Shown here: positions 24,725 through 32,830 of the stretch, one piece after another
Layout: every line of letters begins with the position of its first letter
Numbering within the stretch: position 1 is the first letter of the stretch
Source: an uncultured Lachnoclostridium sp.
Lineage (GTDB): Bacteria > Bacillota > Clostridia > Lachnospirales > Lachnospiraceae
Assembly: GCA_946499505.1 (NCBI GenBank)
Contig: CAMMSL010000009.1
Span: 1 to 64,000, forward strand
DNA length: 64,000 bases
Reading direction: 5' to 3'
Notes under the pieces: model-generated
What the model was told of the DNA's origin: nothing
The model's input: the letters and a program-made list of their open reading frames with translations, nothing else
Databases searched by the model: none
Translations under genes and position numbers: made by a program

Positions 24725-25687
24725 TCAATCCGGCTTCATTTCGATATCGCCGCTCTCCGCGGTGAATTCTATCATTTTATTCCCATCAGCCTGTGATGTG
24801 TAGATCATCTCTGCAATATCTGTGGCATCCAGCCTTCCGGGAGCGTTGTCGGGAATGGTGATCACTCCGTATTCCGTGCTGAGATTAAATGTATATTCGT
24901 TCAGCGGGTCGTGGAGCAAAAGAGATGTGTCTCCGTATTCATTGACTCCGGTCAGTGTTTCAAGCCCTGCGGCCTCAAGGAGAAGGTCTCCGCATTCGAT
25001 TGTCAGATCTGCCGTTTTTACATTCATGGAATTAAATTCGGAATCTCCATATTCATTTATAAAACTGAGCTTATCTACAGACGAAGCATCGGCCTCAAAA
25101 TCTCCGGCTGAAATATCAATATCAGCGCTTGCAAATGTGCTGTCCGTCAAATCCATATCACCGTAGTCGAGATTGATATCCGCATGCTCTGCTTTTATCT
25201 GCTGTATGGAGAGATTACCATAATCGTTATAGACTGTAAGATCGGAAAGCTGCAGACCTTCAGGAATATACAGGCGTATTTCAGGGGTTATGTTTTCCGA
25301 ATCTGTTCCGGGGCCGAAGAAATAAACTCCGTTGACCACTGCACCTGTATCTCCGTGAGTGAAGTGGAGTGTGCCGTCAGAGATTTTGCAGGATGGTTCA
25401 TTATAATCGCCGTCCAGAGTGTATTCGAGATAGAAGTGATCGTCATCTGACGGTTCAAGTATAATATCAGCCTCGGAACCTATATTGATATCCAGAGAAG
25501 AAAAGCTGCCGATCTGTGTTTTCTCCAGGATATACGGCTGCCGCTGGGTGGCGGAAGAACGCAGCCCGTTTCGTGTGATTTTAAAGCCCGGCCATCCGCC
25601 GGCGGCCATTCCGGCGCATGTGAGAAGAACGCCGGCGCCCATTAAGCAGGTGGAAAGGATAAGAATTTTTTTTGTGAGTGGTTTCAT
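24725..25687 (-). CDS. DUF4097-type membrane-anchored beta-repeat protein
   Basis: A 320-aa protein with one N-terminal membrane segment (about 8-30) and a long extracellular stretch of short beta repeats rich in Asp, Gly and Tyr, of the type NDYGNLSIQQIKAEH, LDYGDMDLTDS, NEYGDSEFNSM, NEYGDTSLLL. This pattern is characteristic of DUF4097 proteins, thought to form beta-helix-like surface structures. The ATG overlaps the stop of the DUF1700 gene by 4 bases (ATGA), so the two are translationally coupled. Function unknown; context suggests an envelope-stress sensor or effector under PadR control. Confidence 0.82.
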   Translation of the reverse strand: MKPLTKKILILSTCLMGAGVLLTCAGMAAGGWPGFKITRNGLRSSATQRQPYILEKTQIGSFSSLDINIGSEADIILEPSDDDHFYLEYTLDGDYNEPSCKISDGTLHFTHGDTGAVVNGVYFFGPGTDSENITPEIRLYIPEGLQLSDLTVYNDYGNLSIQQIKAEHADINLDYGDMDLTDSTFASADIDISAGDFEADASSVDKLSFINEYGDSEFNSMNVKTADLTIECGDLLLEAAGLETLTGVNEYGDTSLLLHDPLNEYTFNLSTEYGVITIPDNAPGRLDATDIAEMIYTSQADGNKMIEFTAESGDIEMKPD

Positions 25688-26268
25688 TTTTTATGTCCTC
25701 CTTTCGTGATCTTACTCAGCAGCACGGAAAACTTTCTCACACACCAGCGGAAGAAAAGTATTGCTCCGTATATAAAAAGTATTCCGATTCCCGCACAGAA
25801 AAGTCCGAGACCGATGCAGCATACTCCGTCTGCAAAAGACTGGAACAGAAGCGCTGCACCACCGGCCACACTGAGAATTCCTGCTGCAGCTATTCCCACT
25901 GCTGCAGCTATGATGCTCAGGATCACAGCACCTAGTGTGAGGAGAAGGGCACCGGCTACGATGATCACGCACAGGGCTAAGGGAACCGCAATAGGTGCCG
26001 CAAAAATGGCGAGAATGGCAATCCACACTGCGGAGAGGCCTTTTTTGATCGTTTTCGGCGGCTCTTTTACATTTGCGGCAGCCAGATCTACGATCAGTGC
26101 TTTGGCTGCTTCCTCCGGGGAACCAAGGTCTTCTATAGCCTGCTGTTCCTGATCGGGACCTGCCTCTTCAAAATACTCTTCAAAGTACTCCACTGCTCTG
26201 TAATAATCATCTTTCGGAAGGCGGCGGAGTTTGTGTGTCAGTATCTTCATATATTCACTTCTGGTCAT
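25684..26268 (-). CDS. DUF1700 family membrane protein
   Basis: A 194-aa protein with a soluble N-terminal helical part (MTRSEYMKILTHKLRRLP, then DYYRAVEYFEEYFEEAG) typical of DUF1700, followed by several hydrophobic segments (about 78-110, 112-140 and 145-172) and a basic C terminus. Related proteins appear between a PadR regulator and a DUF4097 protein in many Firmicutes. The start overlaps the PadR gene by 14 bases and the end overlaps the DUF4097 gene by 4 bases, so the three form a tight operon. Confidence 0.85.
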   Translation of the reverse strand: MTRSEYMKILTHKLRRLPKDDYYRAVEYFEEYFEEAGPDQEQQAIEDLGSPEEAAKALIVDLAAANVKEPPKTIKKGLSAVWIAILAIFAAPIAVPLALCVIIVAGALLLTLGAVILSIIAAAVGIAAAGILSVAGGAALLFQSFADGVCCIGLGLFCAGIGILFIYGAILFFRWCVRKFSVLLSKITKGGHKK

Positions 26269-26581
26269 CTGAGATCCCTCCTTTTACAATGTCATCGATA
26301 ATGAATTTAAATGTCTCCCATTCCTTAACAAGCTCTTGCCGTCTCTGCCTGCCGTTTGGAGTAATTCGGTAATAACGCCGGTTACGACCCTGATACTGCT
26401 GATCATAAGTTTCCACATATCGGTTTTCCTGGAGCCGTTTGAGCACAGGGTACAGGGTGGAATCTTTTGACGGTATGGCGCGTTTGATGATCTGGCTGAT
26501 CTGATAGCCGTAGGCGTCGCCCTCGGCAATGACAGACAGAACAAGGAAATCCATCATGGAAGAGTTTGCTGTAAATGTCAT
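26255..26581 (-). CDS. PadR family transcriptional regulator
   Basis: A 108-aa winged-helix repressor: MDFLVLSVIAEGDAYGYQIS, the recognition region KDSTLYPVLKRLQENRYVET, and the wing GRNRRYYRITPNGRQRRQEL. A second possible start is the Met at residue 9 or 10. It heads the DUF1700/DUF4097 operon and probably represses it. Small PadR proteins respond to membrane stress, drugs or phenolic compounds; the signal here is unknown. Confidence 0.9.
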   Translation of the reverse strand: MTFTANSSMMDFLVLSVIAEGDAYGYQISQIIKRAIPSKDSTLYPVLKRLQENRYVETYDQQYQGRNRRYYRITPNGRQRRQELVKEWETFKFIIDDIVKGGISDDQK

Positions 26582-26658
26582 AAACTCAGTCCTTTCTTAA
26601 AATTTATATGTTTGGAGATTTTATATATTAAATCAAAACATATATTTAATTCATTTAT

Positions 26659-26687
26659 ATTATATTTTGTATAATATATATTGTCAA
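26659..26687 (-). promoter_or_regulatory. Consensus promoter of the padR operon
   Basis: On the minus strand TTGACA (26687-26682), a 17-base spacer and TATAAT (26664-26659) match the sigma-A consensus in all 12 positions. Just downstream a 9-bp inverted repeat, TATATGTTT (26605-26613) with AAACATATA (26636-26644), could be a PadR operator, although its 22-base spacing is wider than usual. Confidence 0.85.
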
Positions 26688-27228: not shown

Positions 27229-27269
27229 ATACATGTATACAATTTGATATAAATTCTTTGAATCCGCCA

Positions 27270-27299
27270 TTGCATGTTACTATACAACAATGCTATAAT
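27270..27299 (+). promoter_or_regulatory. Promoter of the DUF5717-DUF5716-TPR cassette
   Basis: TTGCAT (27270-27275), an 18-base spacer and a perfect TATAAT (27294-27299) lie about 50 bases before the first gene of the cassette. Confidence 0.65.
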
Positions 27300-27347
27300 T
27301 CATAGTAGCGTATTTTGCCATTCGGGCAGAAGTAGAATTGTGAGTAG

Positions 27348-30300
27348 GTGACTGATTTGAAGAATAAGATCAAACGTTTTGCCAAAGGAGATTTTCATAT
27401 TCCTCAGCCGGAGATTATTTTTCCGGAGACAAGGATCATAATGCGCGTCGGCGAGGGTGAAAAATACAGAGGGAGTTTCTCCCTGCAGAATCAGGGGGAA
27501 GGCACGATCCGCGGGCTCGTGTATCCCTCTTCTTATCGTGTGCATTGTGATGAACAGGGGTTTGATTCTAATCCGGTGAATATTTACTATACATATGACG
27601 GGACCGGGCTGGTCCCGGGCCATGTAGAACACGGTAAGTTTACGATTGTCTGCAATGGCGGAGAATTTTATATTGCTTTTACAGCGATCATAGAGAAGCC
27701 ATACGTAATGACAAGTTATGGCAAGGTACAGAGCCTGGATGATTTCAAAAAACTCTCTTTTCGAGATGCGGCCGAGGCGGTCAAGCTGTTCCGGTCAAGG
27801 GATTTTTATGAGATCCTGAAATATGAGGATAAGAGAATACAGGCTCTCTATGACAATATGCGCCGCTGGGAACTGGATCAGCAGGCACTGGAGGAGTTCC
27901 TTGTCGGATGCAAGCAGAAAGAAAAAATCTTCCTGACGCTCGAGGAGGAAAGCAGGGCGTTTATTTCATTGACAGAGCCGCGCAAAGAGACATTTGCGAT
28001 CAAGAAAAATACATGGGGGTATCTTGAAATCGACGTGAAGACTGAGGGAGACTTTCTGTACGTTGAACATACCCGTATTACTACAGAAGAATTTATAGGG
28101 AATTCCTACCGCCTTGAGTACTTTCTTGATACAGAAAAACTGCATAAGGGAAGTAATTATGGACGGATCGTACTGGAGTCGCCTTATGAGACTCTGACGT
28201 ATGAAGTGGTAGTCGAGAAAGATATTGTCCGCGATGAGGATCACAGAGCGAATGACCGCGAGTTTGTCGGAATCCTCAAAAACTATCTGAAATATGAGGG
28301 CGGGAAGATGCAACTCGACGACTGGGTGGAAGAGGCCATACGCAGGATTAAACATCTTCGTGAGATGGATGAGAGTAATGAATATTATCTTCTTGCCCAT
28401 GCTCACATCTGCCTGATCGGAAAGCGGATGGATGAGGCAAAATGGCTGCTGGAATCTTATAATTATAACAGATTCGCAATCGGGAAAGATATTGAATTGA
28501 GTTCTTACTATCTTTATCTGACTACTCTTTTGTCCAATGACACGATCGGACAGCGTAAAGTTGCAGAAGAACTTTCGAAGTCTTTCATGAAACATCCTGA
28601 CAGCTGGAGGATCCTCTGCATGCTTGTAGAGGTGGATTCTGAATATAAGATATACAGCGAGAGACTGCGGGCTCTTGAAAAGCAGTTCTACGAGGATAAG
28701 TCTCACAGCATCTGGTTCTATCTGCAGGCATTCCGGTGTTTCCGGGATAAGAGTTCTTCTCTGAAGAAGCTCGGTATGTTTGAAGTCCAGGTACTGCTCT
28801 TTGCGGTGAAGTATAAGCTGATGACAAGGGAACTGGCATTGTATACGGCCAATCTTGCCAGTCAGATGAAAGTGTTTGATCGTCACCTGTATGATGTTCT
28901 TGTCCAGGCGTACGATATGTATAATGAATCTATGATCCTGACTGCGATCTGTACGCTTCTTATTAAAGGAAACTGTATGGACAGCTGTTATTTTAAATGG
29001 TATGAAAAAGCTGTGGAAAATGAGCTGAAGATCGCTCAGCTCTATGAATATTATATGGCAACTGTCCGTCCGGAGCAGTTCCATAAGCCGCTGCCCAGAT
29101 CTGTATATTTGTATTTTATGCACGGAAATAATCTGGATTACAATAAGTGTGCATTCCTTTATTCTAATCTCATCACATATGAGGATGAATCCAGTGAGAT
29201 TTATGCCCATTACCGGGATGAGATGGAAGCTTTTGCATGGAATCAGCTGGACCGTCGGAATATAAATGAACAGCTCAGGATCATCTACAAGAGATTTGTC
29301 GTAGAATCAGCTATGAATCCGGAGCGCATAAAAGCTTTATATGATGTCTGCCATGCATATTGGATCACGACAAAGGTACGGAATATGAAATATGTCCATG
29401 TGATCGCAGAAGACGGCACGATCACACAGAAAGCTCCTTATACAGAAAAGGGGGCACGAGTTTTTTTGTATTCCAAGACAGACCGACTTGTCTGGGAATC
29501 GAAGGATGGAAGACATTATACTGACTCTATTCCATACGAGAGCAAGCGGCTGTTCTATGAACTTCGGTATATGGATATGTGCAGGAAATATATCAATGGA
29601 CTGCGCAGGAACAGGTCAGAAGAACAGACCCAGGAGCTTACGCTGGAAGTAGTCCATGAAAACGGGCTTGAGAATTATGCGGAGGAAGAGATTTTCGGAC
29701 TTTGCAGCAAGACAATCCGTGAAAATAATTATGAGAATGACGATTTTCTCACCTATGTCTGCTTTGAACTGTTTAAGAAGCAGCAATATGATAAAGTCAT
29801 CCTGACTTATCTGGCAAATTATTACTGCGGCGCCACTTCGGATATGAAACTGCTCTGGCGTGAGGCAAGAGACTATGAGATCCATACCCATAAACTTGCC
29901 GAGCGAATTCTGACCCAGATGCTTTTCTCGGAGGAATTGTTCCAGGAGGCACAGATCTTTGAACAGTATTATGCGGAAGGAGCTTATTTCAGGCTCCAGC
30001 AGGCATATCTGACCTATGTCTCGAGAGAATATGTGGTGGAAGAACGCAAGATTGGACGCAGTGTGATCGATATTATCTGCCGGGAATATGAAAAGGGAGA
30101 AGACACGGGTGATATCTGTAAGATTGCCGTACTGAAATATTATTCTCAGAGGGAATACAATACACAGACCCGCAGGACTTTAAAGAAATTTCTTCAGGAA
30201 CTATGTGGAAAACAGATTTATTTCCCGTTCTTCCTCTCCTATGAGAAAGAATGGCTGATCGAGCTGCAACTCTGGGACAAGACTCTGATCGAATATAAAG

Positions 30301-30650
30301 GGCAGAAGGGCAGCAGGGTCATGCTTTATTACCAGCTGCAAAAAGGCGGCGAGGAGCAGGCCGATTATTCGACAGAAGTGCTGACTCCGATGTATGAAAA
30401 TCTTTATGTGAAGAAGTTTGTCCTGTTTGCCGACGAGAAACTAAAGTACTATTTTAAAGAGACAATAGACGGGAATTCTTACCGCAGTGACAAAGAGACG
30501 TGTGTCAGGACAGCTGAACCCGGTGAACAGGGAAGATACGGCCGCCTGAACGATATCTTGATGGAGAAAGACGGAAAGGCAAGAAAGAGAAAGATGCAGG
30601 CATATGCGTTGGAAGATGCAGTAGCAGTGCATATGTTCACACAGGAATAA
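27348..30650 (+). CDS. Large Ig-like plus helical-repeat protein (DUF5717 family), function unknown
   Basis: A 1100-aa protein without signal peptide or membrane segment. Residues about 20-118 and 200-295 read as two beta-sandwich (Ig-like) domains: the first has YRGSFSLQNQGEGTIRGLVY, the second LEYFLDTEKLHKGSNYGRIV. From about 300 to 900 the protein is almost wholly helical with repeat-like spacing (YYLLAHAHICLIGKRMDEAK, WRILCMLVEVDSEYKIYSER), suggesting an alpha-solenoid of TPR type; the end returns to beta character (KLKYYFKETIDGNSYRSD). I match it to DUF5717 from memory. A TTG at 27357 with AGGTG six bases upstream may be the true start instead of GTG 27348. The DUF5716 gene follows after 16 bases. 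Confidence 0.75.
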   Translation: MTDLKNKIKRFAKGDFHIPQPEIIFPETRIIMRVGEGEKYRGSFSLQNQGEGTIRGLVYPSSYRVHCDEQGFDSNPVNIYYTYDGTGLVPGHVEHGKFTIVCNGGEFYIAFTAIIEKPYVMTSYGKVQSLDDFKKLSFRDAAEAVKLFRSRDFYEILKYEDKRIQALYDNMRRWELDQQALEEFLVGCKQKEKIFLTLEEESRAFISLTEPRKETFAIKKNTWGYLEIDVKTEGDFLYVEHTRITTEEFIGNSYRLEYFLDTEKLHKGSNYGRIVLESPYETLTYEVVVEKDIVRDEDHRANDREFVGILKNYLKYEGGKMQLDDWVEEAIRRIKHLREMDESNEYYLLAHAHICLIGKRMDEAKWLLESYNYNRFAIGKDIELSSYYLYLTTLLSNDTIGQRKVAEELSKSFMKHPDSWRILCMLVEVDSEYKIYSERLRALEKQFYEDKSHSIWFYLQAFRCFRDKSSSLKKLGMFEVQVLLFAVKYKLMTRELALYTANLASQMKVFDRHLYDVLVQAYDMYNESMILTAICTLLIKGNCMDSCYFKWYEKAVENELKIAQLYEYYMATVRPEQFHKPLPRSVYLYFMHGNNLDYNKCAFLYSNLITYEDESSEIYAHYRDEMEAFAWNQLDRRNINEQLRIIYKRFVVESAMNPERIKALYDVCHAYWITTKVRNMKYVHVIAEDGTITQKAPYTEKGARVFLYSKTDRLVWESKDGRHYTDSIPYESKRLFYELRYMDMCRKYINGLRRNRSEEQTQELTLEVVHENGLENYAEEEIFGLCSKTIRENNYENDDFLTYVCFELFKKQQYDKVILTYLANYYCGATSDMKLLWREARDYEIHTHKLAERILTQMLFSEELFQEAQIFEQYYAEGAYFRLQQAYLTYVSREYVVEERKIGRSVIDIICREYEKGEDTGDICKIAVLKYYSQREYNTQTRRTLKKFLQELCGKQIYFPFFLSYEKEWLIELQLWDKTLIEYKGQKGSRVMLYYQLQKGGEEQADYSTEVLTPMYENLYVKKFVLFADEKLKYYFKETIDGNSYRSDKETCVRTAEPGEQGRYGRLNDILMEKDGKARKRKMQAYALEDAVAVHMFTQE

Positions 30651-30666
30651 GGAGGTTGTCTTTTAC

Positions 30667-31950
30667 ATGGGACAAGGCAGTATCATTGGTTATGAGATAA
30701 ACGAAAAGACATGTCAAATAAGTTTTTACAATGATGAAGAATTGGAGCCGGATACCCTGGAGGTAGATTCCGATAATTACCAGATCCCTCTGATCATCGG
30801 TAAACTCAGAGATACATGGGCGTACGGAAAAGAGGCAAAACGACTTGTAAGCATCAAGGAAGGCTTTACAGTTACCAGACTGCTCAGCAAAAGCCTTGCA
30901 GGTGACAAGATTGAGTTTGGGGAAGAAACCTACGATGCGGTCTGGCTGCTTTCTCAGTTCATCCAGATGTCATTGCAGTCATTCCCGGTGATTGACGGCA
31001 TCGTGTTTACTGTCCCGACGCTTACAGAAGAACTGGCACAGATGCTGCGAGGGATTGCGTCCCGGATGAATATTGATAAAAGACATGTTTTTATACAGGA
31101 CTATAAGGAAAGTTTCTGCAATTACCTGTTTTATCAGCCAAAGGAGCTTTGGCAGTATGATGCGGCTCTGTTTTGCTGTGACAGAAACGAGATCAGAGCC
31201 TACATGCTCCGGCGACTTCGTCCGGGGCTGGGTGGTGGAAAGACTACATTTGTGACAGTAGATGAAGTGGCCAGCGCCCACATGAAAGAACTGGCAATGG
31301 TATATCCGGTACTCAATGAAGACAAAGCAAAAGAAGCGGATGCCATGTTCTGCAAATTTATCGAGAGTGTGTTTGATAAGAGGATCGTATCTTCTGTATT
31401 TCTGACGGGGGAAGGGTTTGAAAACAACTGGTATCCGAAAGCACTCCGTGTTTTGTGTAATGGAAGACGTGCTTTCATTGGGAACAATCTCTACAGTAAA
31501 GGCGCATGCTATACTGCTTACAGAAAGCTTTATATGCATATCGAGAACCCGGTCTATCTTTCTGAAGATAAACTGACCGACCAGATTACTGTAAATATGC
31601 GCGTGGATGGTCAGGAAATGTGGTATCCGATCGTATCCTGGGGAGCTCACTGGTACGAATCCAATAACCAGTGGGAGGTACTCTGTGAGGATATGGATGA
31701 GATCGAGTTCCATATTGAGTCCCTAATCCAGGGCAATGTGCGGACAGAAAAGATCTCGCTTGCCCGTCTGCCGAAACGTTCGGAATATTCTGTTCGTCTG
31801 CAGCTTGAGACGATTTTCCTCGACAATAAGACATGCAGGATTACTGTAAGAGATGCAGGATTTGGAGATTTCTTCCCGGCGACCGATTTTCATGCTGAGA
31901 AGACGATACATTTAGGAGGCAACGATGGGAAATTTAATTCTTTGTCATGA
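30667..31950 (+). CDS. Degenerate actin/Hsp70-fold protein (DUF5716 family), function unknown
   Basis: A 427-aa cytosolic protein. Its order of segments recalls the Hsp70/actin ATPase fold: an N-terminal GYEINEKTCQISFYN where Hsp70 has phosphate loop 1, GIVFTVPTLTEELAQMLRGI at 111-130, HVFIQDYKESFCNYLF at 140-155 (Hsp70 NEPTAAALAY position), YDAALFCCDRNEIRAYML at 164-181 for phosphate loop 2, and SSVFLTGEGF at 242-251 with AFIGNNLYSKGACYTA at 269-284 for the adenosine site. The nucleotide-binding Asp/Gly residues are poorly kept, so ATP use is uncertain. The C-terminal 130 residues look beta-rich, like a substrate-binding domain. AAGGAGG precedes the ATG; the end overlaps the TPR gene by 26 bases. 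Confidence 0.7.
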   Translation: MGQGSIIGYEINEKTCQISFYNDEELEPDTLEVDSDNYQIPLIIGKLRDTWAYGKEAKRLVSIKEGFTVTRLLSKSLAGDKIEFGEETYDAVWLLSQFIQMSLQSFPVIDGIVFTVPTLTEELAQMLRGIASRMNIDKRHVFIQDYKESFCNYLFYQPKELWQYDAALFCCDRNEIRAYMLRRLRPGLGGGKTTFVTVDEVASAHMKELAMVYPVLNEDKAKEADAMFCKFIESVFDKRIVSSVFLTGEGFENNWYPKALRVLCNGRRAFIGNNLYSKGACYTAYRKLYMHIENPVYLSEDKLTDQITVNMRVDGQEMWYPIVSWGAHWYESNNQWEVLCEDMDEIEFHIESLIQGNVRTEKISLARLPKRSEYSVRLQLETIFLDNKTCRITVRDAGFGDFFPATDFHAEKTIHLGGNDGKFNSLS

Positions 31951-32692
31951 CAGACATGCCACACATCCCTATGAGATCACAAGGATACACTGCCGTATCT
32001 TTACGATCGAAGAACTGTGCTACTATCTTTGCAATAATCTCTACCTGATCGACTATACGATCATGAATGCACAGCTCTGTGACTGGCTCGATGAAGAGCT
32101 GGGAATGGATAAACTGGCTTCTGATCTGAAAGACGTGCTCCGTCTTCACGGATCCGTGGAAAAATTCGTTCTCACGATCCTGAAAGCATCAAGAATTTAC
32201 AGGGAGCCGGAGATGATCCGCATTCAGAATGTCCTGGAGCATCTAAAAAATCAGAAAGACATCGAGCGGCAGAAATATAAAGGCGATAATCTTCTGGAGA
32301 GCGGAGAAGTGGAAGAGGCGATCCTTGTCTATCAGGCAATCCTTAATCAGGAAAAAGATGAGTCTGTAGACGAAAAATTTTACGGCAAGATCTATGCCGG
32401 CCTTGGAGCAGCATACGGACGTTTGTTCCTGTATCAGGAGGCTGCCCGCATGTATGACAGAGCATATCAGATCTGCCAGGATAAGGCGTTGATCAAACCA
32501 TATCTCTATGCGTCGTATAAATACATGTCGCTTGAGGAATACCATATACTTATCACAAAACAGGATGATTACATGGAAATCAATGCACAGATGCGCCGCG
32601 AGATTGACGAAATACGAGAGAATATGCCTGAAGAGACGGATCCTGACCTCATAGAGAAATGGAAGCGCCAGCACAGGAGAAATCACGCATAG
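31925..32692 (+). CDS. TPR-containing protein of the DUF5717/DUF5716 cassette
   Basis: A 255-aa soluble protein. The first 110 residues are a helical domain of unknown type (RIFTIEELCYYLCNNLYLID). From about 115, helices pair like TPRs: YKGDNLLESGEVEEAILVYQ, then YAGLGAAYGRLFLYQEAARM and YDRAYQICQDKALIKPYLYA, followed by a charged C-terminal helix. AGGAGG (31916-31921 region) lies inside the end of the DUF5716 gene, and the 26-base overlap suggests coupled synthesis. TPR domains often bind Hsp70-type partners, which fits the neighbour, but this is inference. Confidence 0.72.
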   Translation: MGNLILCHDRHATHPYEITRIHCRIFTIEELCYYLCNNLYLIDYTIMNAQLCDWLDEELGMDKLASDLKDVLRLHGSVEKFVLTILKASRIYREPEMIRIQNVLEHLKNQKDIERQKYKGDNLLESGEVEEAILVYQAILNQEKDESVDEKFYGKIYAGLGAAYGRLFLYQEAARMYDRAYQICQDKALIKPYLYASYKYMSLEEYHILITKQDDYMEINAQMRREIDEIRENMPEETDPDLIEKWKRQHRRNHA

Positions 32693-32707: not shown

Positions 32708-32830
32708 CGGATATAGTATCCGCTGAAACTTAGGTTTGACAGATGGATATCCGTGTGATAGAATACAACGGTAACTTTACCGTAGTGCAGTGACTCATTG
32801 GTAGAGAGAAAAAGCAATGTCGGATATCCG
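32708..32830 (+). promoter_or_regulatory. Promoter with three CGGATA/TATCCG dyads upstream of the amino-acid transporter
   Basis: TTGACA (32736-32741), 17 bases and TAGAAT (32759-32764) form a good promoter. Dyads: CGGATA-TAG-TATCCG (32708-32722) upstream, GGATATCC (32745-32752) inside the -35/-10 spacer, and CGGATATCCG (32821-32830) in the leader just before the ribosome site. A further palindrome, ACGGTAA-CT-TTACCGT (32768-32783), sits at the expected start of transcription. Confidence 0.7.

Follow-up and report, generated by a model that had tools for sequence, protein, structure and literature searches.

The 64,000-nucleotide stretch analysed here (the window; positions 1 to 64,000 of contig CAMMSL010000009.1, assembly GCA_946499505.1, from an uncultured Lachnoclostridium sp. 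of the family Lachnospiraceae) harbours three genes, A, B and C, arranged as an operon on the plus strand (Table 1). With about even odds (roughly 0.5), this operon encodes a complex that operates independently of ATP hydrolysis and is built round the product of gene B, a predicted lidless Hsp70-like protein. By curated Pfam scores, protein A is a member of the DUF5717 families PF18984 and PF18983 (710.5 and 345.3 bits; cut-off 25) and protein B of DUF5716_C (PF18980; 344.7 bits; cut-off 34.7), which confirms the names that a preliminary description of this DNA had given. DUF5717 and DUF5716 are Pfam names without described function, and a full-text search by these names returned a single paper, unrelated as judged by its title. 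Protein C reaches the cut-off of no Pfam family, the NCBIfam scan of A, B and C yielded nothing over any cut-off, and neither scan lists a J domain or a ribosome-binding domain for any of the three.

Table 1 Features of the A–B–C locus (positions in the window; ORF, open reading frame; aa, amino acids)
Feature	Position	Strand	Remarks
Gene A, DUF5717_N + DUF5717	27348..30650	+	ORF, 1100 aa, GTG start
Gene B, DUF5716_C	30667..31950	+	ORF, 427 aa, ATG start
Gene C	31925..32692	+	ORF, 255 aa, ATG start
Promoter: TTGCAT (27270–27275), 18-base spacer, TATAAT (27294–27299)	27270..27299	+	TTGC and TATAAT invariant in relatives
Motif ATACATGTATACAAT, possible operator, just 5' of the promoter	27229..27243	+	Conserved in most aligned upstream regions

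The ORF coordinates bear out the earlier claim of tight packing, with a 16-base gap between A and B and a 26-base overlap between B and C. Likewise, the single promoter proposed before is backed by conservation, TTGC and TATAAT being invariant in 16 aligned upstream sequences (window and 15 relatives); the site is absent from the list produced by a consensus promoter scan of the window. In two of the 15 relatives (L045 and L109), an extra base shifts the GTG of gene A out of frame, leaving in frame the TTG at 27357, which may be the true start (1097 aa). Counts for the window versus four relatives, using four-fold sites as reference, reveal differences of 0.2–8.5 % at second codon positions and of 26–67 % at four-fold third positions of A, B and C; thus, each of the three is a genuine gene that evolves under purifying selection.

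The predicted structure of B comprises (i) a nucleotide-binding-domain-like part (residues 1–290) of actin/Hsp70-type fold and (ii) a domain resembling the β-part of the Hsp70 substrate-binding domain (SBD-β; residues 305–415, eight predicted strands). After residue 290, the model contains no helix of at least four residues and the chain ends at residue 427, i.e., the SBD-α lid is missing. The best Foldseek match is DnaK without SBD-α (5obv; expectation value, E, 5.4e-17), and the N-terminal domain superimposes on Hsp70s with root-mean-square deviations (rmsd) of 3.7–4.7 over 267–286 residues, at 9–15 % identity in the fold alignments. Ssz1, Hsp110 and DnaK tie in Z as fold matches, so nearness to Ssz1 is not special; sequence searches found no solved relatives of B. 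The Hsp70/actin-type fold suggested earlier is hence recovered in the predicted model, and the fold searches specify it as Hsp70. FtsA and MreB belong, as does B, to the broader actin-Hsp70 ATPase fold; neither appears among the 50 matches listed by either fold search, and, with E values up to 1 considered, B had no match to the NCBIfam ftsA model (TIGR01174). B differs from both by its Hsp70-like SBD-β. In profile comparisons with actin-type proteins, the best match of B was to residues 1–130 of an Hsp70-like protein (538 aa) encoded in the same genome (probability 83); MreB-like and FtsA-like proteins matched poorly, and the L165 protein, which is not DnaK but probably a diol dehydratase reactivase, gave no match. 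The gene for the 538-aa protein (L164, 937–2553, minus strand; C1) lies apart from the A–B–C operon, next to what is presumably a transglutaminase-like gene, and its product has kept the phosphate motifs.

Hsp70 nucleotide sites are defined by two phosphate motifs and an adenosine motif. All members of a diverse set of 43 B sequences retain the acidic residue of phosphate motif 1; none shows the full pattern [DE]xG[TS], two have the GG of phosphate motif 2 and none has the GG of the adenosine motif. The loss of most nucleotide-site residues had been recognized in the preliminary description from the window's sequence. As modelled, B is an Hsp70-type two-domain fold that has lost its lid and the phosphate-binding motifs, and it is probably non-hydrolysing. 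B has the two-domain fold in common with DnaK and other canonical Hsp70s, but differs by its shorter N-terminal domain (~290 vs ~380 residues), the absent lid and the absence of intact phosphate and adenosine motifs.

Protein C consists of a conserved N-terminal domain (~1–105) with the motif IYTIEELCYYLCNN and a tetratricopeptide repeat (TPR)-like part (~110–205). Matches to TPR structures are weak (E 0.26 and 0.85), and of the TPR-like pairs described before, weak sequence matches could be recovered, all of them under curated cut-offs; C is probably a TPR protein. B and C form a single open frame in two of the 40 loci fetched at listed A/B places (L123 and L126; ~720 and ~690 aa), and such fusions are classically taken to signal direct partnership. 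In a search of 249 genomes, full-length C was detected in the same four genomes as A and B (see below); another 89 gave only weak matches to the C profile (E no better than 1e-7), which fall chiefly in the TPR-like region.

For protein A, the model predicts β-domains at residues ~22–117 and 193–294, a helical solenoid (296–668 and 739–972) and two extra β-stretches (670–734 and 978–1053). Two Ig-like domains and a long helical repeat had been proposed for A, and both are seen in the model; the two additional β-stretches were missing from that account. The N-terminal β-domains are predicted to be PapD/MSP-like; sequence searches for solved relatives of A yielded only weak matches. Unlike known PapD/MSP/ASH-type Ig-like proteins (FimC, VAP-A, HYDIN, CEP192 SPD-2), A would fuse such domains to a long solenoid; moreover, its host is a bacterium of the Gram-positive kind, with no pilus system seen alongside.

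Among 299 genomes sampled across the phylum, A and B are present in the same four, all belonging to the Lachnospiraceae; both are absent from 14 control genomes. Within the family (250 genomes), A was found in 245 and B in 244, mostly as one match each. Presence of the two agrees in 245 genomes (both in 242, neither in G327, G389 and G522); the other five have A alone (G396, G426, G444) or B alone (G318, G496), and completeness does not exceed 70 % in four of them. Co-occurrence of A and B thus extends to ~97 % of the genera sampled from this dominant gut family, and the rest of the phylum sample lacks both; the gene set is likely to do something basic and special to the family. The nearest relative by B among 80 records found through B (mostly Mediterraneibacter, Faecalicatena and uncultured Lachnospiraceae, plus some labelled Ruminococcus, Lachnoclostridium or Clostridium) is a Mediterraneibacter with 99 % identity in B.

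These 80 records and the 40 fetched at listed A/B places make up 120 loci, in which the presence of A and B (120 of 120) is therefore partly by construction. C is present in 118, the misses being a contig end (L087) and a locus in one Lachnospiraceae metagenome assembly (L112, 9262–9900) where C is cut off ~12 codons past its start, at the stop codon of B. By gene calling alone, 104 of the 120 loci display a clean A–B–C order, the remainder being mostly gene-calling failures, contig ends and fusions. Across the family, both coordinates are listed for 102 genomes, and in 100 of these A lies directly before B in the same orientation, so that conservation of the neighbourhood, proposed as a check at the outset, is evident. 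In one exception (G307), A and B lie near the ends of different contigs, probably reflecting a contig break. Single-genome peculiarities include the insertion of a gene for a Bax1-I (PF01027) membrane protein that separates A from B (L127, 7432–8241, minus strand) and, in Ruminococcus faecis JCM 15917 (L085, 4690–7982 and 9253–10025), A and C split into overlapping frames by either sequencing errors or decay. Genes 5' of the operon vary among loci; on the 3' side, an amino-acid ABC transporter recurs in ~15–23 of 55 loci, together with what are presumably purF and purB. This recurrence was read as chromosomal position rather than function, and the flanking genes were discarded as a functional clue.

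A fourth gene, D (~395 aa), closely follows C in 16 of the 40 loci fetched at A/B places and in none of the 80 found through B. Of 120 family genomes, 52 were counted as having it (55 matches, of which three at E ~1e-4 to 1e-3 were set aside), and in all 36 of these with both places listed it lies 0.7–1.3 kb 3' of the B match. Two D proteins scanned matched no Pfam family over cut-off; inspection of the alignment by eye suggests coiled-coil-like stretches around two hydrophobic segments, and D is likely a membrane coiled-coil protein. Canonical FtsA over the curated cut-off is found in none of 100 family genomes versus 45 of 81 in the phylum sample; in the window's own genome, an ftsA search gave four matches, none over cut-off and none at the A–B–C locus. 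A longer protein, FtsA-like by our reading, occurs in 39 of the 100 family genomes (open frames of 422–1121 aa, most near 720); the same form is widespread in the phylum sample, frequently alongside canonical FtsA. In five loci (L166–L170; 680–782 aa), its neighbours on either side are what we take to be coaE and yycJ-like genes (in one case with an extra gene in between), in a cluster presumably of the polA-coaE-FtsA-like-yycJ type. A published study (PMC6912079) names an annotation of FtsA for one group of Butyrivibrio genomes.

In the 100 family genomes, D and the FtsA-like protein occur both in 37, D only in 6, FtsA-like only in 2 and neither in 55 (Fisher p 1e-18, without correction for kinship). 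Kinship was considered on a tree of A covering 64 of the genomes (both in 32, neither in 28, D only in 4). Among independent pairs on separate branches with differences in both traits, agreement is 6 to 0, and of 9 pairs differing in the FtsA-like gene ~3 are alike in D; the sign test gives a median p of 0.03 (range 0.03–0.06, or 0.03–0.13 when taken from D). In the SpoIIE control, no link to D was found (Fisher p 0.40; pairs 1.2 vs 2.1). The association was noticed after the searches, the comparison covered just two traits, and the link concerns D, which is absent from the window's genome; hence it represents a lead rather than a result on A–B–C.

The preliminary guess of a chaperone- or scaffold-like complex is supported by the predicted Hsp70 fold of B, the conserved gene order and the B–C fusions. 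In the complex favoured here, B would be a non-cycling Hsp70 subunit without an ATPase cycle, on which C may dock directly, as suggested by their fusion in two genomes. The SBD-β cleft of B would hold a partner peptide or client with low affinity, in the manner of yeast Ssz1, and A would serve as scaffold collecting B–C and clients. In lineages possessing it, D could tether the complex to the membrane. The whole would serve a housekeeping task special to the family; owing to the co-occurrence of D with the FtsA-like protein, the best, albeit slender, lead points to cell division or envelope assembly.

Several observations count against this picture. Superimposed on Hsp70s over its whole length, B gives rmsd values of 8.4–18.6, the good fit applying to the N-terminal domain alone, so that the SBD-β assignment is less sure than that of the nucleotide-binding domain. 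Moreover, the B model was built on 42 fairly similar sequences, and the other four models scored 64.4 to 59.2 versus 78.9 for the best. The model of A has a predicted template modelling score (pTM) of 0.43, leaving its domain arrangement unsure, and the TPR_12 match of C (E 7.7e-4 at residues 120–185) reaches 20 bits compared with a cut-off of 30.1. D is missing from more than half of the family sample, including the window's genome, and in G337, the second exception to the A–B arrangement, A is located on a separate contig, away from contig ends, while B, C and D stay together.

Loss of both lid and nucleotide site in B gives a testable idea which, if true, would make B a bacterial addition to the few Hsp70s that act as partner subunits rather than as ATP-driven chaperones. 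Ssz1 of the fungal ribosome-associated complex offers a functional comparison. Ssz1, which still binds ATP, has a J protein as partner, whereas B, known here from one bacterial family, likely has a TPR-like protein and a PapD/solenoid giant as partners; its role as partner subunit is suggested by operon and B–C fusion, in contrast to the lid and motif losses, which are seen in model and sequences. In the literature searched, with subscription journals largely outside its reach, nothing was found on this operon, B as a lidless Hsp70, the family restriction, the B–C fusions, D, or the link of D with the FtsA-like protein.

With respect to the cellular task, a division or envelope role and a ribosome-linked chaperone are the two highest-rated rivals. 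According to the first, the complex would be a division scaffold that partly stands in for canonical FtsA at the septum and is anchored to the membrane by D. The absence of canonical FtsA from the family genomes and the kinship-corrected pairing of D with the FtsA-like protein, set against unlinked SpoIIE, agree with this. However, 36 of the 81 phylum genomes have no canonical FtsA match, and 35 of these are outside the family and have neither A nor B; loss of FtsA thus does not need the operon, for which reason FtsA replacement was demoted from main explanation to rival. Furthermore, the fold of B is that of Hsp70 rather than FtsA, the D link was noticed after the fact, and the window's genome, by the criteria used, has neither D nor the FtsA-like protein and yet keeps A, B and C. 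Overall, such a stand-in is unlikely. A more elaborate proposal is decidedly speculative: a family-defining machine with the non-cycling lidless Hsp70 as structural subunit of the PapD-like/solenoid giant, linked in many lineages via the membrane coiled-coil protein to an FtsA-like actin homologue, by which the family would organise division or envelope assembly after losing canonical FtsA.

The second rival, a ribosome- or translation-linked chaperone that would correspond in bacteria to the ribosome-associated complex, C replacing the J-protein partner, is improbable considering that no J or ribosome-binding domain is listed for A, B or C and that Ssz1 is not favoured over Hsp110 and DnaK. 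For an ordinary ATP-driven Hsp70 chaperone with two co-chaperones, the Hsp70 fold, the probable TPR partner and the invariant acidic residue of phosphate motif 1 would be appropriate, but the phosphate and adenosine motifs are otherwise lost and the B model has no lid, rendering this option highly doubtful. A mobile or defence cassette, to which the packing of unknown genes might point, can practically be dismissed: the operon is near-universal in one family, mostly single-copy, absent elsewhere in the phylum sample and under purifying selection, and a defence or phage origin was rejected since PADLOC and PHROGs gave no match at E 0.1. A role in sporulation was also rejected, since A and B are near-universal, whereas 33 of 100 family genomes have no SpoIIE match with a best E of 1e-50 or better, and D is unlinked to SpoIIE. 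In the window's genome, the SpoIIE match (C4:70959–72299; 466-aa frame) spans model positions 314–761 only. Many family members share this pattern, so that the membrane part is possibly absent or divergent.

Upstream of the promoter, ATACATGTATACAAT recurs with minor variation in the majority of the 16 aligned regions and possibly represents a regulator's operator, judging from its sequence; it occurs once in the window versus 0.02 expected. The genome contains two exact sites, the second in the area of what are presumably a LysM-protein gene and its neighbour lexA, and with just these two a ATACATGTATACAAT regulon was dropped as a functional clue. Downstream of gene C, a strong promoter-like site at 32736–32764 may mark the start of the next unit. 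On the minus strand of the window (24725–26687), a PadR-like regulator gene and two further genes, which we take to be a cassette of the PadR-DUF1700-DUF4097 type, are located behind a perfect TTGACA-17-TATAAT promoter (26687–26659).
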